Of a DNA stretch of 64,000 nucleotides, positions 40,158-64,000 are shown one piece after another. Where the stretch lies: positions 868,001 to 932,000 of the forward strand of contig JBAIAA010000510.1 in the NCBI GenBank assembly GCA_037893245.1, written 5' to 3'. The notes below the pieces were generated by a model, which worked only from the letters and a program-made list of their open reading frames with translations, searched no databases and was not told the origin of the DNA. The first letter of the stretch is position 1. Each line of letters begins with the position of its first letter. The DNA is from Crossaster papposus. Taxonomy: Eukaryota > Echinodermata > Asteroidea > Velatida > Solasteridae. Position numbers and translations under genes: made by a program.

Positions 40158-40167
40158 TTAACTCTGA

Positions 40168-40239
40168 TGCGCGGTGGCCAAGTGGTAAGGCGTCTGTTTC
40201 GTAAACAGAAGATCGAGGGTTCGAACCCCTCTCGCGCCT
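40168..40239 (+). tRNA. tRNA-Thr(CGT), unit 1
   Basis: Cloverleaf folds with loop TTCGTAA (anticodon CGT, reads ACG), A box TGGCCAAGTGG, B box GGTTCGAACCC and a T5 terminator just downstream. Base 1 is T instead of G, losing the first acceptor pair. No intron, CCA not encoded. Confidence 0.75.
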
Positions 40240-40326
40240 TGTTTTTAAAACCATTTTAATCTGAATAACGTGAATTACAAGAACTTGCTTTTAGAAAGTT
40301 TTCATGTATGAGTCCATTAACGTCGA

Positions 40327-40398
40327 GGAGCTGTGGCCAAGTTGTAAGTCGTCTATCTCGTGAACAGAAGCTAGGGGGTTCGAATCCCTCTCGTGCCA
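40327..40398 (+). pseudogene. Decayed tRNA-Thr copy (module ii), representative
   Basis: Aligns along 72 nt with the intact tRNA: A box TGGCCAAGTTG, loop CTCGTGA (still CGT), B box GGTTCGAATCCC. The 5' acceptor half (GGAGCTG) no longer pairs with TCGTGCC, and the anticodon stem has a mismatch. It recurs in every unit of both arrays. Confidence 0.85.
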
Positions 40399-40431
40399 AT
40401 TATTGTTAAAGATGAATAACACGAATTGATA

Positions 40432-40475
40432 GATTCGTAAACAGAATATCTGGGCTTCGGACCCCTCTCCTGCCT
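40432..40475 (+). pseudogene. tRNA-Thr 3' half (module iii), representative
   Basis: Starts at the anticodon loop (TTCGTAAACAGAA) and runs through a decayed T arm (GGGCTTCGGACCCC) to CTCCTGCC. The 5' half is absent. It recurs in every unit, so it predates amplification. Confidence 0.85.
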
Positions 40476-40544
40476 TTTATTTGTAATGCTAAATATCATT
40501 AATTAATGAGATAAATTGTTGATGTATTCGTTTTTTAACCCTGA

Positions 40545-40624
40545 GGCGCGGTGGCCAGGTGGCCAGGTGGTAAGGCGTCTGTTTCGTAAACATAAGATCG
40601 AGGGTTCGAACCCCTCTCTCGCCT
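40545..40624 (+). pseudogene. tRNA-Thr(CGT), unit 2, A-box duplication
   Basis: GTGGCCAG is duplicated in the D arm, the anticodon stem has a mismatch (AACAT) and the acceptor ends TCTCGCC. Unlikely to fold. Confidence 0.85.
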
Positions 40625-40929
40625 TGTTTTTAAAACCATTTTAAGCTGAATAACATGAATTACAAGGACTTGATATCAGAAAGTGTTCATGTATGATTTC
40701 ATTAACGGCGAGGAGCTGTGTCCAAGTTGTAACTCGTCTATCTCGTGAACAGAAGCTAGAGGGTTTGAATCCCTCTCGTGCCAATTATTGTTAAAGTTGA
40801 ATAACACAAATTTATAGATTCGTAAACAGAATATCTGGGCTTCAGACCCCTCTCCTGCCTTTTATTTGTAATGCTAAATATCATAAATTAATGAGATAAA
40901 TTGTTGATGTATTCGTTTATTAACCCTGA

Positions 40930-41001
40930 GGCGCGGTGGCCAAGTGGTAAGGCGTCTGTTTCGTAAACAGAAGATCGATGGTTCGAACCCCTCTCGCTCT
41001 T
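40930..41001 (+). tRNA. tRNA-Thr(CGT), unit 3, degenerate acceptor
   Basis: The body is intact, but the 3' acceptor strand reads TCGCTCT, breaking two or three pairs; one T-stem mismatch (GATGG). Possibly a pseudogene. Confidence 0.5.
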
Positions 41002-41308
41002 AGATTTTAAAACAATTTTAAGCTGAATAACATGAATTACAAGAACTTGATATTAGAAAGTGTTTATGTATGATTTCATTAACGTCGAGGAGCTGTGGCC
41101 ACGTTGTAAGTCGTCTATCTCGTGAACAGAAGCTAGAGGGTTCGAATCCCTCTCGTGCCAATTATTGTTAAAGTTGAATAACACGAATTTATAGATTTGT
41201 AAACAGAATATTTGGGCTTCACACCCCTCTATAGTGTCTTTTATTTGTAATGCTAAATATCATTAATTAATGAGATAAAGTGTTGATGTATTCGTTTATT
41301 AACCCTGA

Positions 41309-41380
41309 GGCGCGGTGGCCAAGTGGTAAGGCGTCTGTTTCGTAAACAGAAGATCGATGGTTCGAACCCCTCTCGCGCCT
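41309..41380 (+). tRNA. tRNA-Thr(CGT), unit 4
   Basis: Full cloverleaf; one T-stem mismatch (GATGG against CCCTC). A and B boxes intact, T5 terminator downstream. Confidence 0.75.
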
Positions 41381-41670
41381 AGTTTTTAAAACAATTTTAA
41401 GCTGAATAACATGAATTACAAGAACTTGCTTTTAGAAAGTGTTCATGTATGATTTCATTAACGTCGAGGAGCTGTGGCCACGTTGTAAGTCGTCTATCTC
41501 GTGAACAGAAGCTAGAGGGTTCGAATCCCTCTCGTGCCAATTATTGTTGAATGAATAACACGAATTTATATATCTGGGCTTCACACCCCTCTATAGTGTC
41601 TTTTATTTGTAATGCTAAATATCATTAATTAATGAGATAAAGTGTTGATGTATTCGTTTATTAACCCTGA

Positions 41671-41742
41671 GGCGCGGTGGCCAAGTGGTAAGGCGTCTAT
41701 TTCGTAAACAGAAGATCGAGGGTTCGAACCCCTCTCGCGCCC
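41671..41742 (+). tRNA. tRNA-Thr(CGT), unit 5
   Basis: Acceptor, D and T arms intact; one mismatch in the anticodon stem (TCTAT/ACAGA). Discriminator C. Confidence 0.7.
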
Positions 41743-42047
41743 TGTTTTTAAAACAATTTTAAGCTGAATAACATAAATTACAAGAACTTGCTTTTAGAAA
41801 GTGTTCATGTGTGAGTTCATTAACGGCGAGGAGCTGTTGCCAAGTTGTAAGTCGTCTATCTCGTGAACTGAAGCTAGAGGGTTCGAATCGATCTCCTGCC
41901 AATTATTGTTAAAGATGAATAACACGAATTTTTAGATTCGTAAACAGAATATCTGGGCTTCAGACCTCTCTCCTGCCTTTTATTTGTAATGCTAAAAATC
42001 ATTAATTAATGAGATAAATTGTTGATGTATTCGTTTATTAACCCTGA

Positions 42048-42119
42048 GGCGCGGTGGCCAAGTGGTAAGGCGTCTGTTTCGTAAACATCAGATCGAGGGT
42101 TCGAACCCCTCTCGCGCCT
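42048..42119 (+). tRNA. tRNA-Thr(CGT), unit 6
   Basis: Intact except for the 3' anticodon stem (ACATC instead of ACAGA), which costs two pairs. Confidence 0.6.
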
Positions 42120-42424
42120 TGTTTTTAAAACCATTTTAAGCTGAATAACATGAATTACAAGGACTTGATATCAGAAAGTGTTCATGTATGATTTCATTAA
42201 CGGCGAGGAGATGTGTCCAAGTTGTAACTCGTCTATCTCGTGATCAGAAGCTAGAGGGTTCGAATCCCTCTCGTGCCAATTATTGTTAAAGTTGAATAAC
42301 ACGAATTTATAGTTTCGTAAACAGAATATCTGGGCTTCAGACCCCTCTCATGCCTTTTATTTGTAATGCTAAATATCATTAATTAATGAGATAAAGTGTT
42401 GATGTATTCGTTTATTAACCCTGA

Positions 42425-42496
42425 GGCGCGGTGGCCAAGTGGTAAGGCGTCTGTTTCGTAAACAGAAGATCGAGGGTTCGAACCCCTCTTGCGCCT
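42425..42496 (+). tRNA. tRNA-Thr(CGT), unit 7
   Basis: Closest to consensus in the forward array. One acceptor C to T change gives a tolerated G-U pair. Confidence 0.8.
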
Positions 42497-42804
42497 TGTG
42501 TTTTAAAACCATTTTAACCTGAATAACATGAATTACAAGGACTTGATAGTAGAAAGTGTTCATGTACGAGTTCATTAACGGCGAGGAGCAGTGGCCAAGT
42601 TGTAAGTCGTCTATCTCCTGAACTGAAGCTATTGGGTTCGAATCCCTCTCCTGCCAATTATTGTTAAAGTTGAATAACACCAATTTATAGATTCGTAAAC
42701 ATAATATCTGGGCTTCACACCCCTCTATAGTGTCTTTTATTTGTAATGCTAAATATCATTAATTAATGAGATAAAGTGTTGATGTATTCGTTTATTAACC
42801 CTGA

Positions 42805-42876
42805 GGCGCGGTGGCCAAGTGGTAAGGCGTCTGTTTCGTAAACAGAAGATCGATGGTTCGAACCCCTCTCGCGCCT
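42805..42876 (+). tRNA. tRNA-Thr(CGT), unit 8
   Basis: Intact apart from the GATGG T-stem variant shared with units 3 and 4, evidence that these units were copied from one another. Confidence 0.75.
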
Positions 42877-43175
42877 AGTTTTTAAAACAATTTTAAGCTG
42901 AATAACATGAATTACAAGAACTTGCTTTTAGAAAGTGTTCATGTATGATTTCATTAATGTCGAGGAGCTGTGGCCACGTTGTAAGTCGTCTATCTCGTAA
43001 ACAGAAGCTAGAGGGTTCGAATCCCTCTCGTGCCAATTATTGTTGAATAACAGGAATTTATAGATTCGTAAACAGAATATATGGGCTTCAGACCCCTCTC
43101 ATTCCTTTTATTTGTAATGCTAAATATCATTAATTAATGAGATAAAGTGTTGATGTATTCGTTTATTAACCCTGA

Positions 43176-43247
43176 GGCGCGTTGGCCAAGTGGTAAGGCG
43201 TCTGTTTCGTAAACAGAAGATCGACGTTTCGAACCCCTCTCGCGCCT
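43176..43247 (+). tRNA. tRNA-Thr(CGT), unit 9
   Basis: Acceptor has GGCGCGT, the A box is TTGGCCAAGTGG and the T stem reads GACGT, so two arms are weakened. Last unit before the core. Confidence 0.5.
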
Positions 43248-43422
43248 ATTTAAAAAAAAAAAATTAAGCTGAATAACATGAATTACAAGAACTTGCTTTT
43301 AGAAAGAGTTCATGTATGATTTCATTAACGTCGAGGAGCTGTGGCCAAGTTGTAAGTCGTCTATCTCGTGAACAGAAGCTAGAGGATTCGAATCCCTCTC
43401 GTGCCAATTATTGTCAAAGTTG

Positions 43423-43767
43423 AATAGTAAAGTATTTGCATCGCTGCTTTGTTCGGACTCCAGAGTCCACATTTGATCTTAGGTATGGGTAGAAGGATTC
43501 GAGCGTAGAGACTATAGAATCCGAACAGCAGGACCAACCAGTATGGGGAGGGTGGGTGGGATAAATTTTGGATCTTACCTGTCCTCGGAGCGACAAACCA
43601 AAGGCTTCTTCGACTTACCGTTCTCTCTCGTAGTGACCAAATTCACAAAGTGAATGTGGATCTTCCGACCGCTACGTCGCAGCGATGCAAATAGTAAAGT
43701 ATTTGCATCGCTGCTTTGTTCGGACTCCAGAGTCCACATTTGATCTTAGGTATGGGTAGAAGGATTC
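43423..43767. repeat. 78-bp direct repeats with a 13-bp palindrome
   Basis: 43423-43500 and 43690-43767 are essentially identical (AATAGTAAAG...GGTAGAAGGATTC). At the second copy AGCGATGCAAATA (43681-43693) and TATTTGCATCGCT (43700-43712) form a perfect inverted repeat. The first copy begins where the array ends, so this is an array-junction structure. Confidence 0.85.
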
Positions 43768-44580
43768 TTCGCTCCGATTTTAGACCCCCAATCCAACCCA
43801 CTATTCTCTCTTCCTCTACCCCACAACCCCCATCCCATCCCATATCTCATCCCATTTCTCAGCCCTAATCTTACCCGTGATTATCCTCGGGATACACAGC
43901 CTTTGCCACCAATAGTTTTTGTATCGATTTGTCTACCAGTTAATGGTCTTGATGTGTTGTTCCCTGCCGACAGGATTCTCTAGCCGCTAAACCTCAAATG
44001 AGGACAAGCCCATGTTTTGCAGGTACCATCCTTGTTTGCACACTACCGCAAGGCGTTTGGCAACTTTTACTATTCCTCATAGAGCCGTCTCAAGCTGCCT
44101 TACCTTTCTGCATTGTACCTTTTCTCATTGTTCCCTTACTGCTGTAGCCGACCAATTCTTAATTTCGCTTTGTCACACGGTGTCGCCTCATCAGCCCTTG
44201 GCATGTTGCAAAATAGTGAAGGCCTGGACTACCCCGAGATGGATTGTAGCACCTCGACCATTCTTACAATGCACATAGTTTGTCTTCGTCTCGACGACAT
44301 ATATACATGCTGAAATCTGAGCTGCCTAAAACGACCTCTCGTCTTGCCCGTCAGCAAATTTCGAGTGAAAACCGCTTTCTCACCGAGCCCATCCATCGGC
44401 GAAATTTGGCCGCCGTCCATTATACCTCCAGGTTGCTTCAAATTAAAGGACATCCTCATCCCAGTCGACCAGCGCTATCCGAATTCCCTCAAATGCTAAA
44501 TGATATGTTGTACCATATAAATTGGACTTGTGTAAATTTAAACTAGAGCATCATAAATAAATCAACCCCAACCGAATACA
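43768..44580. other. No gene recognised
   Basis: Open frames of 66-88 codons exist on both strands, but none has a recognisable motif or splice context. Possibly degraded transposon sequence preceding the RT fragment. Confidence 0.4.
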
Positions 44581-44589
44581 AGTGGATCC

Positions 44590-44960
44590 ATTTCAATTTC
44601 CGCTGCGCCGACTACTCCCTCTATCTATTAGATCGATGAGAAATCTGAGATCACCTCTAGGTATCAACATTCAGAGTAATCTGAGCTGGAACAGTCAGAC
44701 CCGACATGCAGCATTCAAAGCTACCCTCATCTTGAACTTCTTCATGCGAAACTTCTACCTAGCCTCAAAAGGCTGCCAAGGAGAAGTTGTACACTGCCTT
44801 AGTTAGACCAAACCTTGAGTAGAGGTTTCCCGCTTTGTCTGTGGTGATTTCTCAAGAGGAAGTAGCGTCTCAAAAAATGCTGGCAAACTAATGCTGGTTA
44901 TAACTGTAAGATAGAAGGAAAGCGAACCAACTCACCTACATATACAACATCCTCCACAAC
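44590..44960 (+). pseudogene. Degenerate non-LTR reverse transcriptase C-terminal fragment
   Basis: The residues LGINIQSNLSWNSQTRHAAF and TLILNFFMRNFYLA..KGCQGEVVH match the region after the RT thumb of CR1/L2/jockey-type elements (LGV..L.W..H). Stops and shifts follow at 44803 onward. Confidence 0.6.
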
Positions 44961-45509
44961 ATATTGTTAAAATTAAACCTACCGTCCTGAAATCAAAACT
45001 TTACTTGACTGCGCAGGGGGAACAACGAACAAATCAATGAAATCACAGCCAACACTAACATTTACCTTTAGTCCTTTCTTCCCAAAATTGTGAGAAAGTG
45101 GAACAAGCAACAAAAGGAAACAAGCAACAAAAGGAAACAAGCAAAATGCAGCATACTGTGGCGGGAACTCCCCAGGCCAACCTAAGGCTGTTAGGATAAG
45201 TCGGACACCTATTAAACCGACGGCAATCTTCCCAACCCAAGGCTCTTCCCTATACGAGAGATCACTCAGAGCAACCTAAAGGCTAAGGGTGCAGGTCCGT
45301 TTTGGTGGACATATACCACCGATTATGATGATGGCGATTACTCTCTGTTAATTACACAATAAACCTGTGAACAAAGACACCTTATTGTCGGTATAGGCCT
45401 ACAAAGATCAACAATGATGATATATTCTCAACAATCAATACAATGTACGATAATTACGATTCAATTGGGGCTGTTTCATTTCCTGATTTCTAAATTACTG
45501 GGGAGGAAA

Positions 45510-45790
45510 ACCTACTGCTTACAGCAGCAACGCGCAACCGCATCAACAATGTGCAACGCCATGCACAACGCGCGACAGCATCAACAATGTGCAACGCCAT
45601 GCGCAACGCCCAACTACGTAATGTCCAACAGCATACGCAGTGCACAACAGCATACGCAGTGTACTGCAGCATACGCAATGTACTACCACATACGCAATGT
45701 ACTACAGCATATACAATGCACTATAGCGTACATAATGTATTATAGCATATACAATGCACCACAGCATATACAATGCACTAGTGGTGTGCG
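45510..45790. repeat. Tandem repeat, CAACAGCATACGCAATGTA-type
   Basis: A dozen or so imperfect units of about 21-22 bp (ACTACAGCATACGCAATGT). The ORFs on both strands are artefacts of the repeat. Confidence 0.8.
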
Positions 45791-46255
45791 CAATGTACGT
45801 ACAACTCAGAACACAAGTCGTGAACCTACATGTACTGTACTTCTTCCAGTGGCGCGGCACTCCACCAACTAACCATGAACACGCATTACGTACCACCCAG
45901 GTAAACACGTACACCATGTAAAAACACCTACATGTACATGTACTTACACCTATAGGCTTTGTTACACAATCTCGTGCATTCACGCAGCGAGTCACTGAGC
46001 GGTAAGCTCCGCCCAGCCAGCGCGCGCAACTACAGGTCACGTACGCCCTGGGTTACATTTCATTCACAAGGTTATAATTACAATAGCATAACAGCACTAA
46101 GTCATTGCACTTTCCGTCACAATGCCATTAACTTTGGGAGCACCAAGCTTCGACGGCAAAACAGAGTGGACGAAATTAGTCTGACCTGTTACTTACCAGC
46201 CTCACTGGACTGCTGGGCAGAATCTCCGTGTTATTTCGTTTAAAACAATACTCAC

Positions 46256-46325
46256 AATCTCCAATACTTTCTAGATGTCCCTTCTTCATCGTGACCCCTT
46301 CAATTGGTGCGCCAGACGAGGCCAT
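46256..46325 (-). CDS. Possible first coding exon (tentative)
   Basis: On the - strand an ATG at 46325 opens MASSGAPIEGVTMKKGHLES and reaches a strong donor, GTGAGT, at 46255. No continuation was found to the left, so it may be chance or a transposon exon. Confidence 0.2.
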
Positions 46326-46379
46326 TGTTTTGAAGAGTACCCAATGATGTGCTTTCACTTCTGATGTGCCAAAGTTCTA

Positions 46380-47630
46380 AACCTGACTTGCATCCTTCCA
46401 GTGCTTGCTACAGCACTCTCCCACTTCAATGCATCATGGTCCTTCCTGTAAAGTATTCTTATGCAAAATCGGTTAGCTCAGCTAAAAATTTAAAATATAT
46501 CTACTGATGCATGCTAGCCCCAAAGTATTCAAAATCACGATTTACCTTCTCCTTATGATTGATTAGCCGACAGTGGCCTTGATATTTATCTCCTGATAAT
46601 CATTTTGCGGCCTGCTTCCTTTATTTACGGTACTCATTCCCCAATTATTATTTCCCCGAGAGGTTTTATTATCTCATTGCTATAACCGGGGTTTATCCCC
46701 TCATTTGTTGTTTGCTTTATTTCTTAAACTTCACTGTTATTTGCAAGACAAAACCGTGGACATCAAAATTCATCGATTGGGCCACGCCCGCCATAGTGAG
46801 TGTCTTGTAGCGTGACGTGGGCATGGCCAAACACTTGCACAGTGCAATTTTAACCTTCGTGTAATTTCATACAAGCAGGTAACTAAAACCTTGAAGTGCT
46901 CAAATGTTTCCTTTCCTCTTTATTAACAGTGATGGGGGTCGCATTTACAAACGAAAAACCCCAACCATTACTAAAACCAAGTGGGTATAATTTGCCTACA
47001 AGTGAAATACGTTAACTCAACCCAAGTGCAGAAAATCACGCTAAGGCGAAGAATCCCGCCGGAAGCATAGCGACCAATTGGTCAGACGTCAAAATCATGC
47101 AATGCGAGTTGTCGACCTCCCGAGAATCTGTGGCCACTGAATCGGCCTATCTAGCTTACATTTAAGGGGAATACAGAATACACATAAATAACCTTGTGCT
47201 ATTTAAACTGGGGCTGTTGCCCCCATTGTCATGCCTCTGTTTTATTAGGCAATATCTACAACCTACAAGCGTCAAACCTTATACGTTTTAGATCCAATTT
47301 ACCATAAATACCCGCTTCATTATTCATTTCATCTTTCTTGACTATTTTATGTTGGTATTGCCTCGCTCCTGTTTTGTCTTTTATTGTAACAACCTTGACT
47401 TCCTATTGCTGTCTAAGTAATATTCATAACCCTTTGCTTGCCCTTGTTTGTTGCTTTGTGGCTTTATTACATTATTACATTATCCTACTTTCTGCACAAG
47501 AATATTGTTCGTTTGTTGCCATTCGTGGCCGAATAACTAATACAACATATAAAACATAACAGATACCTTTACCTGCCTTCTTAATTCACTGGGGCTATTC
47601 CCCTTTTTATAAATACATTATTACAAATTG
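46380..47630. other. No gene recognised
   Basis: AT-rich, no motif-bearing ORF, no repeat of note. Confidence 0.4.
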
Positions 47631-47659
47631 GGCCTTTCCCAACCTCTGCCTTGTGCCTT

Positions 47660-48185
47660 CGCCAACATCAATATCTGGGGCTCTTCCCCACATCGATCTC
47701 TGGGGCTTTTCCCCACATCGATCTCTGGGGCTTTTCCCCACATCGATCTCTGGGGCTTTTCCCCGCATTTTTTTCTGGGGCCTTTCCCCCACCTTTCTGC
47801 CTTGGGCCTTTCCCCACATCAATGTCTGGTTTTGTCCACATTAAACTCTGGGTTTTTGTCTCACATTAATCTCTGGCTTTTCCCCACATCTATACATCTA
47901 TACAACTATACATCTACACATTCTATACATATCTCCCTGGTGCCTTTCCCCACATTAACATCCGAGCCTTTTCCTCACATTAAAATCTAGGTTTTTCCTT
48001 ACATTTAATTCCTTGCTTTTTCCCATTTCTCTGGGGCCTTTCCCCATCTCAACCTGGGGCCTTTCCCCCACCTCTCAGCCTGGGGCCTTTCACCACATCT
48101 ATTTCTGGGGATTTTTCCCCGCATCGATCTCCGGGGCTTTTCCCCACATCGATCTCCGGGGCTTTTTTCCACATTGATCTCAATT
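47660..48185. repeat. Minisatellite, GGGGCTTTTCCCCACATCGA-type
   Basis: Units of about 29 bp built on the self-complementary GGGGCTTTTCCCC-like core, most regular at 47690-47770 and again at 48100-48180, with diverged units between. Confidence 0.85.
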
Positions 48186-48299
48186 TATATCTTTGTATAT
48201 GGGGCTTTCTATTTCATGCCTATCAACGGTGCTTTTGACCATTCATGTCTACAAATCAGGTTTTCCACCTGTCAAAAATAAAAATATTTTTCTGTTGCT

Positions 48300-48840
48300 C
48301 TCCACCTCATTTTCATGAATGGGACTTTTCACCTCTTTTCCATGAATGGGACTTTTCACCTCTTTTCCATGAATGTGGCTTTTCACCTCATTTCTATGAA
48401 TGGGGGTTTTCACCTCAATTCTATGAATGGGGCTTTTCACCTCCTTTCTATGAATGGGGCTTTTCACCTCATCTCTATGAATGGGGCTTTTCACCTCATC
48501 TCTATGAATGGGGCTTTTTACCTCATTTCTATGAATGGGGCTTTTTAGCTCATTTGTATGATTGGGGCTTTTTACCTCATTTCTATGAATGGGTCTTTTT
48601 ACCTCATTTCTATGAATGGGGCTTTTTACCTCATTTCTATGAATGGGGCTTTTTACCTCATTTCTTATAAATGGCTTTTCACCCCATTTTTTATGAATGG
48701 TTTTTCACCTCATTTGTATGAATGGCTTTTCACCTCATTTTGTATGAATGACTTTTCATCTCATTTTGTATAAACGGGGCGTCTCACTTCATTTTTATGA
48801 ATGGCTTTTTATGTCATTTTGTATAAACGGGGCTTTTCCC
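48300..48840. repeat. 27-bp minisatellite, ATGAATGGGGCTTTTCACC-type
   Basis: About twenty units. The period is a multiple of three, so all + frames stay open and each unit encodes nine residues (MNGAFHLIS). I see no start context or splice sites to support expression. It is related to the preceding minisatellite through the GGGGCTTTT core. Confidence 0.9.
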
Positions 48841-49349
48841 TGTCTATACCATGGTTACCTAAAGCATCCCCAAAAAATCTAAACAGAATTTTGGAGAAAC
48901 CACAACACTCCGGAAAACACTAAACACCACAAAAGAAGGGGGAGGGGTTACCTCTGTTCCATCTCTTGCTTACCATGAAACTTGTTAGAGAAAACAATAA
49001 AACCAACCGCAAAACTTGCCAGCCCTCTTATCTATTTTATACCCTAGTCTAAACACACATCCCCATGGGGTATGTTACTCTGCTCATGCCACAACACTGC
49101 CCTGCCTATGTACACATTATGTACCGCATATCTTGGATTAGCAGCAGTATCGCCTAACAGGAGTCAGTTAAAGACATAGAAATTCACAAGATAAGATTCA
49201 CAGTTAGAAGTTCTTGACATCGGGCTTAAATTGAACTACTTCCTCCACACTGACGTACCTAAATTTAGGCAAATGCTTATCACCGGTAACCTTTGTTTAT
49301 AATTTTGCATCTTGACATGCGCATCTACTGCATAATATCAACTGTAAGA

Positions 49350-49378
49350 TTTTTTATTTATTTATTTATTTATTTTCC
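49350..49378. repeat. (TTTA)n microsatellite
   Basis: Seven or so TTTA units. Confidence 0.8.
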
Positions 49379-49546
49379 CAACAGTTTAACTGCAGCAAAT
49401 TTGTTCGGCTTAAACCGACTCATTCCAAACATGCCTTAGTTGATAAAAGTATTATGCAGTAATATAATCCTTTATTAGGGTCAACAAAACATTATTTCCG
49501 ATTTTGGAAACAAACATACCATGGTGGCAACTTTCGTTAAGGTAAA

Positions 49547-49577
49547 CCATGGAGGAATAATTCTTATTCCTCCATGG
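49547..49577. repeat. 14-bp perfect palindrome
   Basis: CCATGGAGGAATAA, loop TTC, then its reverse complement. Confidence 0.8.
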
Positions 49578-49579
49578 GT

Positions 49580-51440
49580 AAACTTACGCAACAGTTTGTG
49601 CACTAAGGATTAGCAAGGTTTAACAGCCAGAAAATATTCAATCGAAATAACTCTTTGTTTAGGATATGACTAGTCTTCCTGAAGACCTTATTTTAGCCAA
49701 AACATTTGTATGCGGGGCCTGTGTTTGTTTCCTCCCACCATTTCACTACTATTTCCCATATCATATAGGTACAGCACGTCTACTCCAGCAAAAGATCAAA
49801 AACCCCTTCCGATTTTGACGCTCAGTGTCCATTGCTGTAATGCTTGCCGTTTATTAGACAGCAACAATTGTCCACTTTCAGTAATACTCTTCCAAGGAAT
49901 TGACCACAATGTCATATAAATCGCCAGACTCCGAAATTTGTTGTCTGATATGCACATACAATTTGTAAATAGAAAATTGTTCCCAGATACCAGGTTGCAG
50001 TCCATTCACAGACATCACTTTCACATATTTCGTTGTGAGCCAAGCGTTACATTTATCATTATCACTTTAAGGGCATTTACCAACTATTTACCAGACACCA
50101 TTTTCTGGGTAATATTTGCCAACATCGGGGTGCCCAACCCCGCCGAGAAACCACACTCTGCCAAGACTATGGTCATCTAGAGCAACCAAATCCTGCAAGT
50201 GCAACCACAACTGAAAATTAATATATTCTCCTTAGACCTATACAGCTGCCTTTTACTGTACATGTTCCCATCGTACATGCCTACTGTACTTTCCACCAAC
50301 ACCGTTTGGGAACTTCCTCTCACCAAGATATACTACCTTTGTGTCTAATCCTTGATTAATATCTATATCTTGGCTAAACTTACTCTATACAATATTGTTT
50401 AACATCAACGCATGAGGAGGCATGGTTGTTCCCGGTCCACAAGTGCGAATTTTCTCCAATCTCGCTTGGAATACATTGAGCCACATGCTTCAAAAGAGTG
50501 AATATAATTCAACGGATGGAATGTGCTATTGCAAGGCAGCGCAAAATGCGGCCTCTGTCTTCAGTTAAAATATTGAACTTTGATTGCAACCGATAGCCAA
50601 ACGCATTAATTCACCGTTTCCGGGTCTATTTCTTTGGTGAATATTGGCTATCATGAACGGAATGTTAAAGTAAATATGCACGTATACTTCACCACCCTCT
50701 CATTCCTGTTTGCAGGTTAACACGATACAACTTGCCTCGTAAGGAACAACGCGTGGTTCTAAACCCATCTCATGCCCTGTGGCTTTGCCGTGGGGCTTCG
50801 CCGCCTTGTACATACACACTCCCATAACAATCAAGGTCTGATCGCCTGGGTTGTGCCAAACATAAACCAATTTCAGGGACTAACTATAAATACCCTTTCT
50901 AGGGGCCTATTATCACTCCTAAACCTTGGAGACCCAGGGCAAAGCTTTACCCCTCTATCGCTCCAAGGACCTACTCCATTGTGTTAGTGCCTCTGGTAAT
51001 GAAGATTCTGCTTCACCAGACCCCTGCCATACCAGTCATCACATGTCCTGTACATATGGGATTAAATCAAGAGAAACGTGAAATACATAAACGGTGCTGT
51101 GTCTGTTAAATCACAGAGGGATAAATCCATCGTTCTAACCTTGTCCATCCTACCTCTTGCTACCAGCATACACATATTCATGGTGAACTGCCTTTACAGT
51201 CACCAGTGATAATATTTTAAATTCAGAAAAGGTCCGACATATGTCCTTATATAGGACTACAAAGTTTTCCTCTGAGATAAACCACTCATTCTGAATTTAG
51301 ACAAAGTTTGGAAAAAACAACCCCTCACCTGGTAGTCACTTGGCTACCTACGGACTCATTCGCCGCATCTGATATAAAACATCCGCTAATGCCCATGAAG
51401 TTCCACTAACATAATTGCATAAGCTGGCGCTACGGTGGCC
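49580..51440. other. No gene recognised
   Basis: Short open frames only. No exon, RNA gene or repeat identified up to the inverted array. Confidence 0.4.
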
Positions 51441-51447
51441 TAAGACG

Positions 51448-54543: not shown

Positions 54544-54850
54544 TCAAGCTTGATAAACGAATACCTCAAAAGTTTTTCTAATTATTTCATCATATTTAGC
54601 ATTACAAATAAAAGGCATGAGAGTGGTCTGAAGCCCAGATATTCTGTTTATGAATCTATCAATTCGTGTTATTCAGCTTTAACAATAATTGGCACGAGAG
54701 GAATTAGAACCCTCTAGCTTCTGTTCACGAGATAGACGACTTACAGATTGGCCACAGCTTCTCGCCGTTATAATGGACTCATAAATGAACACTTTCTGAT
54801 ATCAAGTCCTTGTAATTCATGTTATTCAGGTTAAAATGGTTTAAAACACA

Positions 54851-54922
54851 AGGCGCGAGAGGTGTTCGAACCCTCGATTTTCTGTTTACGAAACAGACGC
54901 CTTACCACTTGGCCACCGCGCC
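54851..54922 (-). tRNA. tRNA-Thr(CGT)
   Basis: T-stem C to A variant and GAAAATC change, matching the unit at 52942: a sign of segmental copying within the array. Confidence 0.65.
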
Positions 54923-55227
54923 TCAAGGTTAATAAACAAATACACCAACACTTTTTCTCATTAATTATTGATATTTAGCATTACAAATAAAAGGCATGAG
55001 AGTGGTCTGAAGCCCAGATATTCTATTTACGAATCTATAAATTCGTGTTATTCAACTTTAACAATAATTGGCACGGGAGGTATTCGAACCCTCTAGCTTC
55101 TGTTTTCGAGATAGACGACTTACAACTTGGCCACAGCTCCTCGCCGTTAATGAACTCATACATGAACACTTTCTAAAAGCAAGTTCTTGTAATTCATGTT
55201 AATTAGCTTTAAATTGTTTTAAAAACA

Positions 55228-55299
55228 AGGCGCGAGAGGGGTTCGAACCCTCAATCTTCTGTTTACGAAACAGACGCCTTACCACTTGGCCACCGCGCC
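55228..55299 (-). tRNA. tRNA-Thr(CGT)
   Basis: One T-stem change (TTGAGGG); otherwise consensus. Confidence 0.75.
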
Positions 55300-55604
55300 T
55301 CAAGGTTAATAAACGAATACATCAACACTTTTTCCCATTAATTATTAATATTTAGCATTACAAATAAAAGGCATGAGAGTGGTCTGAAGCCCAGATATTC
55401 TGTTTACGAATCTATAAATTCGTGTTATTCAACTTTAACAATAATTGGCACGAGAGGTATTCGAACCATTTAGCTTCTGTTCACGAGATAGACGACTTAC
55501 AACGTAGCCACAGCTCTTCGACGTAAATGTACTCATAAATGAACACGATCTAATATCAAGTCGTTGTAATTCATGTTATTCAGCTTTAAATGGTTTTAAA
55601 AACC

Positions 55605-55676
55605 AGGCGCGAGAGGGGTTCGAACCCTCGATCTTCTGTTTACGAAACAGACGCCTTACCACTTGGCCACCGCGCC
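55605..55676 (-). tRNA. tRNA-Thr(CGT)
   Basis: Consensus copy; identical in body to 51807-51878. Confidence 0.8.
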
Positions 55677-55981
55677 TCAAGGTTAATAAACGAATACATC
55701 AACACTTTTTCTCATTATTTCATCATATTTGGCATTACAAATAAAAGGCATGAGAGTGGTCTGAAGCCCAGATATTCTGTTTACAACTCTATAAATTTGT
55801 GTTATTCAACTTAAACAATAATTGGCACGAGAGGTATTCGAACCCTCTAGCTTCTGTTAACGAGATAGACGACTTACAACTAGGCCACAGCTCCTCGCCG
55901 TTAATGAACTCATACATGAACACTTTCTAAAAGCAAGTTCTTGTAATTCATGTTAATTAGCTTAAAATTGTTTTAAAAACA

Positions 55982-56054
55982 AGGCGCGAGAGGGGGTTCG
56001 AACCCTCGATCTTCTGTTTACGAAACCGACGCCTTACTACTTGGCCACCGCGCC
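55982..56054 (-). tRNA. tRNA-Thr(CGT), 73 nt variant
   Basis: One extra C in the T stem/acceptor junction, a changed anticodon-stem flank (GTCGGTTTCG) and D-arm AGTAG. Confidence 0.5.
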
Positions 56055-56359
56055 TCAAGGTTAATAAACAAATACATCAACACTTTTTCTCATTAATTAT
56101 TGATATTTAGCATTACAAATAAGAGGCATGAGAGTGGTCTGAAGCCCAGATATTCTGTTTACGAATCTATAAATTCGTGTTATTCAACTTTAACAATAAT
56201 TGGCACGAGAGGTATTCGAACCCTTTAGCTTCTGTTCACGAGATAGACGACTTACAACTTGGCCACAGCTACTCGCCGTTAATGAACTCATACATGAACA
56301 CTTTCTAAAAGCAAGTTCTTGTAATTCATGTTAATTAGCTTAAAATTGTTTTAAAAACA

Positions 56360-56431
56360 AGGCGCGAGAGGGGTTCAAACCCTCGATCTTCTGTTTACGA
56401 AACAGACGCCTTACCACTTGGCCACCGCGCC
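56360..56431 (-). tRNA. tRNA-Thr(CGT)
   Basis: B box reads GGTTTGAACCC (one transition); all else consensus. Confidence 0.7.
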
Positions 56432-56738
56432 TCAAGGTTAATAAACAAATACATCAACACTTTTTCTCATTAATTATTGATATTTAGCATTACCAATAAA
56501 AGGCATGAGAGTGGTCTGAAGCCCAGATATTCTGTTTACGAATCTATAAATTCGTGTTATTCAGCTTTAACAATAATTGGCACGAGAGGAATTAGAACCC
56601 TCTAGCTTCTGTTCACGAGATAGACGACTTACAGATTGGCCACAGCTTCTCGCCGTTATAATGGACTCATACATGAACACTTTCTAAAAGCAAGTTCTTG
56701 TAATTCATGTTAATTAGCTTAAAATTGTTTTTTTTAAA

Positions 56739-56810
56739 AGGCGCGAGAGGTGTTCGAACCCTCGATCTTCTGTTTACGAAACAGCCGCCTTACCACTTGG
56801 CCACCGCGCC
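56739..56810 (-). tRNA. tRNA-Thr(CGT)
   Basis: T-stem C to A variant and one change at the anticodon-stem base (GGCTGT). Confidence 0.6.
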
Positions 56811-57115
56811 TCAAGGTTAATAAACGAATACATCAACACTTTTTCTCATTATTTCATCATATTTGGCATTACAAATAAAAGGCATGAGAGTGGTCTGAAG
56901 CCCAGATATTCTGTTTACAACTCTATAAATTCGTGTTATTCAACTTTAACAATAATTGGCACGAGAGGTATTCGAACCCTCTAGCTTCTGTTAACCAGAT
57001 AGACGACTTACAACTTGGTCACAGCTCCTCGCCGTTAATGAACTCATACATGAACACTTTCTAAAAGCAAGTTCTTGTAATTCATGTTAATTAGCTTAAA
57101 ATTCTTTTAAAAACA

Positions 57116-57188
57116 AGGCGCGAGAGGGGGTTCGAACCCTCGATCTTCTGTTTACGAAACAGACGCCTTACCACTTGGCCACCGCGCC
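57116..57188 (-). tRNA. tRNA-Thr(CGT), 73 nt variant
   Basis: Carries the one-base insertion near the T stem seen at 55982; otherwise consensus. Confidence 0.6.
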
Positions 57189-57494
57189 TCAAGGTTAATA
57201 AACAAATACATCAACACTTTTTCTCATTAATTATTGATATTTAGCATTACCAATAAAAGGCATGAGAGTGGTCTGAAGCCCAGATATTCTGTTTACGAAT
57301 CTATAAATTCGTGTTATTCAACTTTAACAATAATTGGTACGAGAGGTATTCGAACCATTTAGCTTCTGTTCACGAGATAGACGACTTACAACGTAGCCAC
57401 AGCTCTTCGACGTAAATGTACTCATAAATGAACACGATCTAATATCAAGTCGTTGTAATTCATGTTATTCAGCTTAAAAGGGTTTTAAAACACA

Positions 57495-57566
57495 AGGCGC
57501 AAGAGGAGTTCGAATCCTTGATCTTCTGTTTACGAAACAGACGCCTTACTACTTGGCCACCGCGCC
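57495..57566 (-). tRNA. tRNA-Thr(CGT), variant
   Basis: Same family of changes as 52563 (AGTAG D arm, T-stem and acceptor changes). Function doubtful. Confidence 0.45.
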
Positions 57567-57871
57567 TCATGCTTGATAAACGAATACCTCAAAAGTTTTT
57601 CTAATTATTTCATCATATTTAGCATTACAAATAAAAGGCATGAGAGGGGTCTGAAGCCCAGATATTCTGTTTACAAATCTATAAATTCCTGTTATTCAAC
57701 TTTAACAATAATTGGCACGAGAGGTATTCGAACCCTCTAGCTTCTGTTCACGAGATAGACGACTTACAACTTGGCCACAGCTCCTCGCCGTTAATGAACT
57801 CATACATGAACACTTTCTAAAAGCAAGTTCTTGTAATTTATGTTATTCAGCTTAAAATGGTTTTAAAAACC

Positions 57872-57943
57872 AGGCACGAAAGGGGTTCGAACTCTTGATC
57901 TTCTGTTTACGAAACAGACGCCTTACCACTTGGCCACCGCGCC
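57872..57943 (-). tRNA. tRNA-Thr(CGT), variant
   Basis: Changes in the acceptor (TTCGTGCC) and T arm (AAGAGTTCGAACCCC); D and anticodon arms intact. Confidence 0.5.
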
Positions 57944-58089
57944 TCAAGGTTAATAAACAAATACATCAACACTTTTTCTCATTAATTATTAATATTTAGC
58001 ATAACAAATAAAAGGCATCAGAGTGGTCTGAAGCCCAGATATTCTGTTTACGAATCTATGAATTCGTGTTATTCAACTTTAACAATAAT

Positions 58090-58161
58090 TGGCACGAGAG
58101 GTATTCGAACCCTCGATCTTCTGTTTACGAAACAGACGCCTTGCCACTTGGCCACCGCGCC
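58090..58161 (-). pseudogene. Chimeric tRNA: intact 5' part, module-ii 3' end (copy 1)
   Basis: 5' acceptor, D and anticodon arms are those of the intact tRNA, but the sequence after the T loop is that of the decayed module ii (ATACCTCTCGTGCC). The acceptor stem is therefore mismatched. The 5' end lies 218 bp from the previous unit, exactly 377 minus 159. Confidence 0.9.
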
Positions 58162-58443
58162 TCAGGGTTAATAAACAAATACACCAACACTTTTTCTCAT
58201 TAATTATTGATATTTAGCATTACAAATAAGAGGCATGGGAGTGGTCTAAAGCCCAGATATTCTGTTTACGAATCTATAAATTCGTGTTATTCAACTTTAA
58301 CAATAATTGGCACGAGAGGTATTCGAACCCTCTAGCTTTTGTTTTCGAGATAGACGACTTACAACTTGGCCACAGCTCATCGCCGTTAATGAACTCATAA
58401 ATGAACACTTTCTAAAAGCAGAGCTCCTCGCCGTTAATGAACT

Positions 58444-58940
58444 TGTGGGAAATTATGCGGTCTCCACAATAGTCTTGACCCGAAAGATTAACTCACCAAG
58501 CAAGTTGCGAAGTCCGTGGCACCAGGCACGTGGTCCGTGTGGTAGCGTGCAGCGCGAGTGTTCTGGCCCGCGAGCACGGGGCCGATTCACGGCGAGTGTT
58601 TGCTTGAGTTCCCGCTAACGACAGTTAGTGCAATAATGGCTGGCGTAGACTAGTTCAAAAATGCACACGGCGAAAAGTAATCACACTTAACAGTAGTAAC
58701 AGGCAAAAACTTGGCACAAAAAGGTAAATATAACACAACAAAACTGGCGACGACCGAGGAGATTTTACGCACGAGACACTGGTGTTCCTAGCGACACCCA
58801 AGAGGTGGTAAAACCGTGTGTTAGTTCGTGTGCCCAGGTCAGGTAACTCCAACGAACGAAAAAGGTCTCCTATGGCGGGCCGAATGTATCAAAGTTTCTA
58901 TGGAGGGCCGCATCCACCATTATTAGAAAGTGTCACTACA
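58444..58940. mobile_element. Solo-LTR-like insertion, copy 1 (497 bp)
   Basis: Starts TGTGGGAAATTATGCGG and ends GTGTCACTACA, with TGT...ACA termini and AACT on both sides (58440-58443, 58941-58944). No coding capacity: the two open frames are short and lack motifs. GC content is well above the array. A 48-bp piece of array spacer is duplicated just before it. An LTR of an unknown retrotransposon is the simplest reading. Confidence 0.7.
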
Positions 58941-59015
58941 AACTCATAAATGAACACTTTCTAAAAGCAAGTTCTTGTAATTCATGTTAATTAGCTTAAA
59001 ATTGTTTTAAAAACA

Positions 59016-59087
59016 AGGCGCGAGAGGGGTTCGAACCCTCGATCTTCTGTTTACGAAACAGACGCCTTACCACTTGGCCACCGCGCC
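59016..59087 (-). tRNA. tRNA-Thr(CGT)
   Basis: Consensus copy, first tRNA after the LTR insertion of repeat 1. Confidence 0.8.
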
Positions 59088-59392
59088 TCAAGGTTAATAA
59101 ACAAATACACCAACACTTTTTCTCATTAATTATTGATATTTAGCATTACAAATAAGAGGCATGAGAGTGGTCTGAAGCCCAGATATTCTGTTTAAGAATC
59201 TATAAATTCGTGTTATTCAACTTTAACAATAATTGGCACGAGAGGTATTCGAACCCTCTAGCTTCTGTTCACGAGATAGACGACTTACAACTTGGCCACA
59301 GCTCCTCGCCGTTAATGAACTCATACATGAACACTTTCTAAAAGCAAGTTCTTGTAATTCATGTTAATTAGCTTAAAATTGTTTTAAAAACA

Positions 59393-59464
59393 AGGCGCGA
59401 GAGGGGTTCGAACCCTCGATCTTCTGTTTACGAAACAGACGCCTTACCACTTGGCCACCGCGCC
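59393..59464 (-). tRNA. tRNA-Thr(CGT)
   Basis: Consensus copy; T5 downstream. Confidence 0.8.
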
Positions 59465-59610
59465 TCAAGGTTAATAAACAAATACATCAACACTTTTTCT
59501 CATTAATTATTAATATTTAGCATAACAAATAAAAGGCATCAGAGTGGTCTGAAGCCCAGATATTCTGTTTACGAATCTATGAATTCGTGTTATTCAACTT
59601 TAACAATAAT

Positions 59611-59682
59611 TGGCACGAGAGGTATTCGAACCCTCGATCTTCTGTTTACGAAACAGACGCCTTGCCACTTGGCCACCGCGCC
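59611..59682 (-). pseudogene. Chimeric tRNA (copy 2)
   Basis: Identical structure to 58090-58161, offset by 1,521 bp. Confidence 0.9.
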
Positions 59683-59964
59683 TCAGGGTTAATAAACAAA
59701 TACACCAACACTTTTTCTCATTAATTATTGATATTTAGCATTACAAATAAGAGGCATGGGAGTGGTCTAAAGCCCAGATATTCTGTTTACGAATCTATAA
59801 ATTCGTGTTATTCAACTTTAACAATAATTGGCACGAGAGGTATTCGAACCCTCTAGCTTTTGTTTTCGAGATAGACGACTTACAACTTGGCCACAGCTCA
59901 TCGCCGTTAATGAACTCATAAATGAACACTTTCTAAAAGCAGAGCTCCTCGCCGTTAATGAACT

Positions 59965-60461
59965 TGTGGGAAATTATGCGGTCTCCACAATAGTCTTGAC
60001 CCGAAAGATTAACTCACCAAGCAAGTTGCGAAGTCCGTGGCACCAGGCACGTGGTCCGTGTGGTAGCGTGCAGCGCGAGTGTTCTGGCCCGCGAGCACGG
60101 GGCCGATTCACGGCGAGTGTTTGCTTGAGTTCCCGCTAACGACAGTTAGTGCAATAATGGCTGGCGTAGACTAGTTCAAAAATGCACACGGCGAAAAGTA
60201 ATCACACTTAACAGTAGTAACAGGCAAAAACTTGGCACAAAAAGGTAAATATAACACAACAAAACTGGCGACGACCGAGGAGATTTTACGCACGAGACAC
60301 TGGTGTTCCTAGCGACACCCAAGAGGTGGTAAAACCGTGTGTTAGTTCGTGTGCCCAGGTCAGGTAACTCCAACGAACGAAAAAGGTCTCCTATGGCGGG
60401 CCGAATGTATCAAAGTTTCTATGGAGGGCCGCATCCACCATTATTAGAAAGTGTCACTACA
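59965..60461. mobile_element. Solo-LTR-like insertion, copy 2
   Basis: Identical or nearly so to copy 1, duplicated with the 1,521-bp unit rather than by new insertion, since flanks and target duplication are the same. Confidence 0.7.
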
Positions 60462-60536
60462 AACTCATAAATGAACACTTTCTAAAAGCAAGTTCTTGTA
60501 ATTCATGTTAATTAGCTTAAAATTGTTTTAAAAACA

Positions 60537-60608
60537 AGGCGCGAGAGGGGTTCGAACCCTCGATCTTCTGTTTACGAAACAGACGCCTTACCACTTGGCC
60601 ACCGCGCC
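60537..60608 (-). tRNA. tRNA-Thr(CGT)
   Basis: Consensus copy, equivalent of 59016 in repeat 2. Confidence 0.8.
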
Positions 60609-60913
60609 TCAAGGTTAATAAACAAATACACCAACACTTTTTCTCATTAATTATTGATATTTAGCATTACAAATAAGAGGCATGAGAGTGGTCTGAAGCC
60701 CAGATATTCTGTTTAAGAATCTATAAATTCGTGTTATTCAACTTTAACAATAATTGGCACGAGAGGTATTCGAACCCTCTAGCTTCTGTTCACGAGATAG
60801 ACGACTTACAACTTGGCCACAGCTCCTCGCCGTTAATGAACTCATACATGAACACTTTCTAAAAGCAAGTTCTTGTAATTCATGTTAATTAGCTTAAAAT
60901 TGTTTTAAAAACA

Positions 60914-60985
60914 AGGCGCGAGAGGGGTTCGAACCCTCGATCTTCTGTTTACGAAACAGACGCCTTACCACTTGGCCACCGCGCC
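60914..60985 (-). tRNA. tRNA-Thr(CGT)
   Basis: Consensus copy, equivalent of 59393 in repeat 2. Confidence 0.8.
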
Positions 60986-61131
60986 TCAAGGTTAATAAAC
61001 AAATACATCAACACTTTTTCTCATTAATTATTAACATTTAGCATAACAAATAAAAGGCATCAGAGTGGTCTGAAGCCCAGATATTCTGTTTACGAATCTA
61101 TGAATTCGTGTTATTCAACTTTAACAATAAT

Positions 61132-61203
61132 TGGCACGAGAGGTATTCGAACCCTCGATCTTCTGTTTACGAAACAGACGCCTTGCCACTTGGCCACCGC
61201 GCC
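61132..61203 (-). pseudogene. Chimeric tRNA (copy 3)
   Basis: Third copy of the intact/module-ii chimera, again 218 bp from its neighbour. Confidence 0.9.
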
Positions 61204-61485
61204 TCAGGGTTAATAAACAAATACACCAACACTTTTTCTCATTAATTATTGATATTTAGCATTACAAATAAGAGGCATGAGAGTGGTCTGAAGCCCAGAT
61301 ATTCTGTTTACGAATCTATAAATTCGTGTTATTCAACTTTAACAATAATTGGCACGAGAGGTATTCGAACCCTCTAGCTTCTGTTTTCGAGATAGACGAC
61401 TTACAACTTGGCCACAGCTCATCGCCGTTAATGAACTCATAAATGAACACTTTCTAAAAGCAGAGCTCCTCGCCGTTAATGAACT

Positions 61486-61982
61486 TGTGGGAAATTATGC
61501 GGTCTCCACAATAGTCTTGATCCGAAAGATTAACTCACCAAGCAAGTTGCGAAGTCCGTGGCACCAGGCACGTGGTCCGTGTGGTAGCGTGCAGCGCGAG
61601 TGTTCTGGCCCGCGAGCACGGGGCCGATTCACGGCGAGTGTTTGCTTGAGTTCCCGCTAACGACAGTTAGTGCAATAATGGCTGGCGTAGACTAGTTCAA
61701 AAATGCACACGGCGAAAAGTAATCACACTTAACAGTAGTAACAGGCAAAAACTTGGCACAAAAAGGTAAATATAACACAACAAAACTGGCGACGACCGAG
61801 GAGATTTTACGCACGAGACACTGGTGTTCCTAGCGACACCCAAGAGGTGGTAAAACCGTGTGTTAGTTCGTGTGCCCAGGTCAGGTAACTCCAACGAACG
61901 AAAAAGGTCTCCTATGGCGGGCCGAATGTATCAAAGTTTCTATGGAGGGCCGCATCCACCATTATTAGAAAGTGTCACTACA
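61486..61982. mobile_element. Solo-LTR-like insertion, copy 3
   Basis: Third copy, with a C to T change (CTTGATCCGAAAG) against copies 1 and 2. Confidence 0.7.
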
Positions 61983-62057
61983 AACTCATAAATGAACACT
62001 TTCTAAAAGCAAGTTCTTGTAATTCATGTTAATTAGCTTAAAATTGTTTTAAAAACA

Positions 62058-62129
62058 AGGCGCGAAAGGGGTTCGAACCCTCGATCTTCTGTTTACGAAA
62101 CAGACGCCTTACCACTTGGCCACCGCGCC
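62058..62129 (-). tRNA. tRNA-Thr(CGT)
   Basis: One change in the T-stem/acceptor junction (CTTTCGCG); otherwise consensus. Confidence 0.7.
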
Positions 62130-62436
62130 TCAAGGTTAATAAACAAATACACCAACACTTTTTCTCATTAATTATTGATATTTAGCATTACAAATAAGAG
62201 GCATGAGAGTGGTCTGAAGCCCAGATATTCTGTTTAAGAATCTATAAATTCGTGTTATTCAACTTTAACAATAATTGGCACGAGAGGTATTCGAACCCTC
62301 TAGCTTCTGTTCACGAGATATAGACGACTTACAACTTGGCCACAGCTCATCGCCGTTAATGAACTCATACATGAACACTTTCTAAAAGCAAGTTCTTGTA
62401 ATTCATGTTATTCAGCTTAAAATGGTTTTAAAAACA

Positions 62437-62508
62437 AGGCGCGAGAGGGGTTCAAACCCTCGATCTTCTGTTTACGAAACAGACGCCTTACCACTTGGCC
62501 ACCGCGCC
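62437..62508 (-). tRNA. tRNA-Thr(CGT)
   Basis: B box GGTTTGAACCC as at 56360; otherwise consensus. Confidence 0.7.
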
Positions 62509-62811
62509 TCAAGGTTAATAAACAAATACATCAACTTTTTCTCATTAATTATTGATATTTAGCATTACAAATAAAAGGCATGAGAGTGGTCTGAAGCCCA
62601 GATATTCTGTTTACAACTCTATCAATTTGTGTTATTCAACTTAAACAATAATTGGCACGAGAGGTATTCGATCCCTCTAGCTTCTGTTAACGAGATAGAC
62701 GACTTACAACTAGGCCACAGCTCCTCGCCGTTAATGAACTCATACATGAACACTTTCTAAAAGCAAGTTCTTGTAATTCATGTTAATTAGCTTAAAATTG
62801 TTTTAAAAACA

Positions 62812-62884
62812 AGGCGCGAGAGGGGGTTCGAACCCTCGATCTTCTGTTTACGAAACCGACGCCTTACTACTTGGCCACCGCGCC
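62812..62884 (-). tRNA. tRNA-Thr(CGT), 73 nt variant
   Basis: Shares all variants of 55982-56054 (extra base, GTCGGTTTCG, AGTAG). Confidence 0.5.
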
Positions 62885-63190
62885 TCAAGGTTAATAAACA
62901 AATACATCAACACTTTTTCTCATTAATTATTGATATTTAGCATTACAAATAAAAGGCATGAGAGTGGTCTGAAGCCCATATATTCTGTTTACGAATCTAT
63001 AAATTCGTGTTATTCAACTTTAACAATAATTGGCACGAGAGGTATTCGAACCATTTAGCTTCTGTTCACGAGATAGACGACTTACAACGTAGCCACAGCT
63101 CTTCGACGTAAATGTACTCATAAATAAACACGATCTAATATCAAGTCGTTGTAATTCATGTTATTCAGCTTAAAAGGGTTTTAAAACACA

Positions 63191-63262
63191 AGGCGCAAGA
63201 GGAGTTCGAATCCTTGATCTTCTGTTTACGAAACAGACGCCTTACTACTTGGCCACCGCGCC
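63191..63262 (-). tRNA. tRNA-Thr(CGT), variant
   Basis: Shares the changes of 57495-57566. Confidence 0.45.
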
Positions 63263-63573
63263 TCATGCTTGATAAACGAATACCTCAAAAGTTTTTCTAA
63301 TTATTTCAACATATTTAGCATTACAAATAAAAGGCACGAGAGGGGTCTGAAGCCCAGATATTCTGTTTACGAATCTATCATCAATTCGTGTTATTCAGCT
63401 TTAACAATAATTGGCACGAGAGGAATTAGAACCCTCTAGCTTCTGTTCACGAGATAGACGACTTACAGATTGGCCACAGCTTCTCGCCGTTATAATGGAC
63501 TCATAAATGAACACTTTCTGATATCAAGTCCTTGTAATTCATGTTATTCAGGTTAAAATGGTTTTAAAACACA

Positions 63574-63645
63574 AGGCGCGAGAGGTGTTCGAACCCTCGA
63601 TCTTCTGTTTACGAAACAGACGCCTTACCACTTGGCCACCGCGCC
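63574..63645 (-). tRNA. tRNA-Thr(CGT)
   Basis: T-stem C to A variant; otherwise consensus. Confidence 0.7.
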
Positions 63646-63956
63646 TCAAGGTTAATAAACAAATACACCAACACTTTTTCTCATTAATTATTGATATTTA
63701 GCATTACAAATAAAAGGCATGAGAGTGGTCTGAAGCCCAGATATTCTATTTACGAATCTATAAATTCGTGTTTTTCAACTTTATTATTAACAATAATTGG
63801 CACGAGAGGTATTCGAACCCCCTAGCTTCTGTTCACGAGATAGACGACTTACAACTTGGCCACAGCTCCTCGCCGTTAACGAACTCATACATGAACACTT
63901 TCTAAAAGCAAGTTCTTGTAATTCATGTTAATTAGCTTAAAATTGTTTTTTTTTAA

Positions 63957-64000
63957 AGGCGCGAGAGGTGTTAGAACCCTCGATCTTCTGTTTACGAAAC
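63957..64000 (-). tRNA. tRNA-Thr(CGT), cut by window end
   Basis: 3' acceptor, T arm (with changes: TTCTAACACC) and part of the anticodon arm visible; the 5' part lies outside the window. Confidence 0.6.

Follow-up and report, generated by a model that had tools for sequence, protein, structure and literature searches.

Why does a genome carry dozens of copies of one transfer RNA (tRNA) gene in two arrays that run towards each other? The question is raised by a 64,000-nucleotide stretch of the sea star Crossaster papposus (contig JBAIAA010000510.1, positions 868,001–932,000; hereafter the window), in which tandem copies of tRNA-Thr(CGT) lie on the plus strand in a left array and on the minus strand in a right array. 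The answer that we consider likely is a tRNA-derived satellite, whose three-module unit has been homogenised by unequal crossing-over and whose arrays now evolve largely apart.

Two opposed arrays of a three-module unit

ARAGORN called 38 tRNA-Thr(CGT) genes in the window, nine on the plus strand (40167–43248) and 29 on the minus strand (51806–63646), against none in each of 10 windows in which the 2-mers had been shuffled. A check of the units against a tRNA model, proposed in an earlier note on this DNA, recovered the same 38 genes: the Rfam tRNA model gave 41 matches, comprising these genes (43.4–68.4 bits) and three weaker ones (29.7–30.4 bits). Tandem Repeats Finder (TRF) returned a period of 377 bp for both arrays, with 8.7 copies in the left and 33.1 copies (75% matches) in the right. 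The units lie head to tail, each with a complete tRNA gene, which in three units is chimeric, and they form long tandem arrays of a tRNA-derived unit. When one unit was compared with the window by blast, all matches were confined to the two arrays, which head towards each other across an 8.0-kb core without a unit match. The ninth unit of the left array stops at unit position 262, the innermost unit of the right array is cut at unit position 66, and a run of 16 cytosines (40142–40157) immediately precedes the first left-array unit.

The earlier note had described two inverted tRNA-Thr(CGT) arrays with a 377-bp composite period around a core of about 8 kb, with nine plus-strand and at least 31 minus-strand units. 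The layout is borne out by ARAGORN, Rfam and TRF, and so are the counts, the 31 minus-strand units corresponding to 29 complete tRNAs, one truncated copy and one copy cut by the window end. The period of 377 bp stands as the main one, and is composite in that each unit holds three tRNA-derived modules. It is not uniform, there being three units of 218 bp and a 1521-bp repeat with an inserted long terminal repeat (LTR).

The unit is itself a higher-order repeat, in which module A is an intact tRNA, module B is a whole but degenerate tRNA that starts 159 bp further on, and module C is a tRNA 3′ half from the anticodon loop onward. The blast comparison showed this self-similarity at fixed offsets. 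Aligned with consensus A, consensus B scored 94 and consensus C scored 46, where the maxima in 500 shuffles were 26 and 24. Of the spacers, that after A scored 37 with that after C (shuffle maximum 36) and 32 with that after B (shuffle maximum 28), again with 500 shuffles. At relaxed thresholds, module B copies of five left-array units and two right-array units were matched at 26–30 bits; the others were unlisted at E values up to 0.1. The three-module unit was probably derived from an older array with about 159 bp per tRNA.

Other sequences were seen within and around the units. Several minisatellites of 24–27 bp lie in the core at 47665–48838, one of them with 20 copies. Adjoining the left array, a sequence at 43423–43767 has inverted ends, as judged by eye, and its first 78 bp (43423–43500) occur again exactly at 43690–43767; it may be a small transposon. 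A 128-amino-acid open frame at 42369–42755, antisense to the tRNA modules and without an NCBIfam match, is probably spurious.

Exchange within the arrays and a captured LTR

TRF reported a further period of 218 bp at three places, and 218 is 377 minus 159. The three 218-bp units share an identical A/B chimeric tRNA. When the copy at 58090 was compared with nearby A and B modules, 11 of the 12 columns that differ up to tRNA position 47 were of A type, and 30 of the 31 from position 59 onward were of B type (gap columns counted in both cases). A switch of this kind is the trace left when A and B exchange sequence inside the tRNA. Larger repeats are nested in the right array. Among 17 of its units, mean identity was 0.945 at a lag of five units (n = 12) and 0.904–0.933 at each of the remaining lags (1–11); a block of five units is present twice and a 1521-bp higher-order repeat three times (Table 1). 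Homogenisation by local recombination, with higher-order repeats, is thus found here as in a tRNA-derived satellite.

The two arrays were also compared with each other. Mean unit identity was 0.915 within the plus array, 0.921 within the minus array and 0.898 across them, with single pairs reaching up to 100%; the closest plus/minus pair was 93.9% identical. In a tree of 31 full units, a set that excludes truncated, chimeric and LTR-bearing units, the plus units were separated from the minus units by a branch supported at 78/87. This separation in both identity and tree argues for homogenisation within arrays and disfavours a fold-back artefact of assembly. With moderate support from the tree, the two arrays therefore appear to evolve largely apart as separate populations.

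Within the 1521-bp repeat lies a 497-bp element with TGT...ACA ends and AGTT on both sides as a target duplication, which is the form of a solo LTR, and it is because of this location that the element is present in three copies. It occupies the spacer ahead of a former module B: the AGTT is 12 bases before the start of that module, which now ends after a few bases and is followed by repeated spacer. Beyond its three copies, the element matched the rest of the window only in 18–25 bases of edge unit sequence, and a primer-binding-site pattern for this tRNA, searched as exact TGGAGGCGCG on both strands, was not found. Ty3 inserts at a position comparable to this site. Insertion targeted by RNA polymerase III (Pol III) was considered for the LTR, but one event proves nothing.

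Table 1. Features of the tRNA-Thr(CGT) locus, in window coordinates
Feature	Position	Strand	Description
Left array	40158–43426	+	8 full units (359–382 bp) and a ninth cut at position 262; 9 tRNA-Thr(CGT)
Right array	51446–64000	-	Reaches window end; 29 complete tRNA-Thr(CGT), one truncated innermost copy (51446–51511), one cut by window end
Non-array core	43427–51445	.	Several short-period tandem repeats; no tRNA found
Example module A	42425–42496	+	tRNA-Thr(CGT), 66.1 bits, no broken pair
Example module B	40327–40398	+	Degenerate whole tRNA, 30.4 bits, 159 bp after module A
Example module C	40433–40474	+	tRNA 3′ half from anticodon loop on
Five-unit block, present twice	51889–55706	-	About 1.9 kb; 96.9% identical
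1521-bp higher-order repeat, three copies	57954–62518	-	Copies one and two identical; third vs second 99.1% (11 mismatches, 2 gap bases)
Chimeric tRNA, copy 1	58090–58161	-	A-type 5′ part, B-type 3′ part, 218-bp unit
Chimeric tRNA, copy 2	59611–59682	-	Identical to 58090 copy
Chimeric tRNA, copy 3	61132–61203	-	Identical to 58090 copy
Solo LTR, copy 1	58444–58940	-	497 bp, TGT...ACA, AGTT both sides
Solo LTR, copy 2	59965–60461	-	Same element
Solo LTR, copy 3	61486–61982	-	Same element

Satellite, supply locus or other explanations

For a tRNA-derived satellite the following history is proposed. In the ancestral array, tRNA-Thr(CGT) genes would have been spaced at about 159 bp, and deletions around the third module would have produced the 377-bp three-module unit, as the homology of the modules suggests. 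This unit would then have spread and been homogenised by unequal crossing-over, with exchange inside the tRNA shown by one type of chimera, after which the two oppositely oriented arrays would have evolved largely apart. Selection on translation, if any, would need only to keep some module A copies intact while others drift. Concerted evolution of a tRNA satellite was among the possibilities in the earlier note, and it agrees with the A/B chimera, the nested higher-order repeats and the higher identity within than between arrays.

A selected supply locus, in which a high number of tRNA-Thr copies is kept for decoding ACG or for a special tissue, appears unlikely. A role of this type has been suggested for a Ser/Tyr cluster of Arabidopsis (PMC12308677; for this and the other papers cited here, statements refer to the portions of text available to us). 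In favour of a supply locus, every stem pair is present in reference module A. Of the 38 module A copies, 13 keep all their pairs and six are the same as the reference; another three carry a 1-base indel, which the fixed register scores as breaks. The A box pattern is present in 37/38 copies, with the exact consensus A box in 30 of the 35 copies without an indel, and a run of four T residues lies within 25 nt downstream in 34/38. The strict B box pattern is less favourable, being found in only 22/38, though the B core GGTTCGAA occurs in 29/35 copies without an indel. Pol III can probably transcribe the intact copies that have an A box, a B box and a T run, and the 13 copies with all pairs intact may be expressed.

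Against a supply locus stand the two degenerate modules in every three, and the pattern of substitution in module A, for which 21 distinct sequences were used and the tRNAs with a 1-base indel (55983, 57117 and 62813) were left out. Seventeen of 34 distinct substitutions break a pair, where 13.1 (SD 2.2) would be expected with sites drawn randomly among equal bases. Pair-breaking changes are not under-represented, and there is therefore no sign of cloverleaf constraint on single copies of module A, which on this evidence look unconstrained. For the real supply locus envisaged in the earlier note the evidence is divided: there are intact copies that carry promoter and terminator sequences for Pol III, but the substitutions do not favour the preservation of stem pairs.

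Several observations sit uneasily with a satellite of drifting copies. The anticodon is CGT in 38/38 genes (ARAGORN), and the anticodon loop has received 1 of the 34 substitutions where 3.3 were expected; both hint at some selection. So does the diversity of module A, which is below that of the remaining unit (pi 0.046 vs 0.088, from 27 of the 31 full units after removal of near-duplicates), a point that favours a supply locus as well. Values as low as this were seen in 10 of 374 circular shifts, the unshifted one included, in what is a weak test since shifts overlap. The spacer between modules B and C is as low or lower (0.0385 vs 0.0456 for A, 31 units), and low diversity is therefore not peculiar to the tRNA. 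As to the history proposed above, the plus/minus split is moderately supported, in a tree with strong support for 7 of 27 inner branches, and one of the spacer scores is barely above its shuffle maximum.

That the inverted layout is an assembly error, with pieces of array joined around the wrong 8-kb core, we regard as improbable. Large arrays are hard to assemble, and the exact identity of two of the 1521-bp repeats could be real or made by the assembly. However, a simple fold-back would yield near-identical copies, which the closest plus/minus pair is not, and the units are split by orientation in the tree; a fold-back artefact is accordingly unlikely. A misjoin of two genuine arrays, unlike a simple fold-back, may still be compatible with these data. 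Among 37 listed self-matches of at least 60 bases (E up to 1e-8, array-to-array pairs excluded), none showed the flanks or core ends as inverted duplicates, the right flank lying outside the window and matches below 60 bases not being covered.

The distribution of the substitutions bears on two further explanations. They are skewed to the 3′ half of the tRNA (24/34, binomial P 0.012; 22/31 without the chimeras), and variability within module A is highest in the T stem and 3′ acceptor strand (pi 0.10–0.12). Conversion between modules was considered as a candidate cause of the excess in the 3′ half. It is conceivable, at a low probability, that the arrays have left translation and persist as a satellite binding Pol III/TFIIIC, with factor binding or transcription kept rather than a working tRNA; conservation of the A box, the anticodon loop and the 5′ acceptor strand would then go with decay of pairing in the T stem and 3′ acceptor strand. 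Still less probable is a boundary or Pol III/TFIIIC chromatin element that acts through bound factors and not through the tRNA: the A box has 2 of the 34 substitutions (5.2 expected), the variability of the T stem and 3′ acceptor strand would fit, and in human a tandem repeat of tRNA genes, bound by CTCF, has been implicated as a boundary (PMC4041453), but the B box is not spared, with 7 substitutions where 5.2 were expected. The earlier note had named a boundary or insulator cluster as one possibility. A tRNA-derived short interspersed element (SINE) turned tandem is scarcely plausible, since, for all the internal promoter patterns of the tRNA-like modules and the inflation of tRNA counts by such a SINE in Schistosoma (PMC2770079), dispersed copies were not found in the window and the spacers resemble those of tRNA arrays more than the body and tail of a SINE.

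Neighbouring elements and known tRNA arrays

Elsewhere in the window, a minus-strand LTR retrotransposon occupies 6640–15179, its end repeats (6640–8138 and 13558–15179) matching at 92% and containing a 25-bp tandem repeat in 2.9 and 6.9 copies. Its integrase domains are in the upstream frame and its reverse transcriptase in the downstream frame, and such an order has been described for Gmr1-like Gypsy elements (PMC3587641). Taken with the form of the tRNA genes, the retrotransposon points to a eukaryotic and probably animal host. At 37055–39618, a frame with a DUF7869 match slightly above the cut-off overlaps a long frame in which a 51-bp minisatellite runs to about 12 copies. An open frame of 199 amino acids at 1617–2216 has 42 relatives (best identity 45%) and is without a Pfam match.

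The earlier note had called the locus unusual, which is only partly right, as large clusters or tandem arrays of tRNA genes are already in the literature from Entamoeba, plants and several animals. The sea anemone Nematostella has clusters of tRNA genes (Bermudez-Santana 2010, PMC2888827), in which pairs are mostly heterogeneous, whereas the locus here holds one isoacceptor. In Hydractinia, tRNA tandem arrays are roughly evenly spaced and have similar spacers, as they do here (PMC11067881). The available text on these two animals mentions neither a three-module unit with degenerate tRNAs, nor an inverted pair, nor an amplified solo LTR (PMC2888827, PMC11067881). For three corals, a table of repeats gives 23498, 20541 and 395 tRNA repeats (PMC12005156).

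Among plants, tRNASAT_ZM of maize is a 91.95-kb tandem satellite array named for tRNA, the likeness that can be drawn being one of name and array form (PMC10335936). The SYY cluster of Arabidopsis likewise mixes intact and tRNA-like genes in tandem, 13 of 54 clustered Tyr genes giving tRNA-like RNAs, but it consists of Ser and Tyr genes that most tissues leave silent and that are expressed chiefly in root cap cells (PMC12308677). The human variable number tandem repeat at 1q23.3 resembles the present locus in its tandem tRNA genes, with LTRs beside the array and LTR pieces in each unit; it differs in its 7.3-kb GC-rich units, which are 98% identical, carry Leu, Gly, Glu and Asp tRNA genes and bind CTCF (PMC4041453). 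Entamoeba also has tandem arrays, for which concerted evolution has been proposed, and tRNA-Thr(CGT) is arrayed there, together with Gln, in all species studied but one. However, in E. histolytica 25 array types hold almost all tRNA genes, in units of up to five genes, and most units are uniform within an isolate (PMC2652664).

In a literature search that covered subscription papers little, no unit was found that joins three modules of a single isoacceptor, some of them decayed, and carries an amplified solo LTR. An exact 39-base pattern of the tRNA had 0 matches in viral contigs and 0 in genome contigs, sets from which records of the same genome were possibly left out. Tandem tRNA arrays are thus already known; within the literature covered, the single-isoacceptor unit of three modules, with decayed modules and an amplified LTR, appears to be a new form.

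The steps by which a tRNA gene may turn into satellite DNA can be read from this locus: an array of modules, a three-module unit, unequal crossing-over within the tRNA, a captured solo LTR, and amplification. The locus also indicates that raw counts of tRNA genes in genomes of this kind lump drifting copies together with genes that may work: all 38 genes pass the tRNA finder, and 13 of the 38 have every stem pair.

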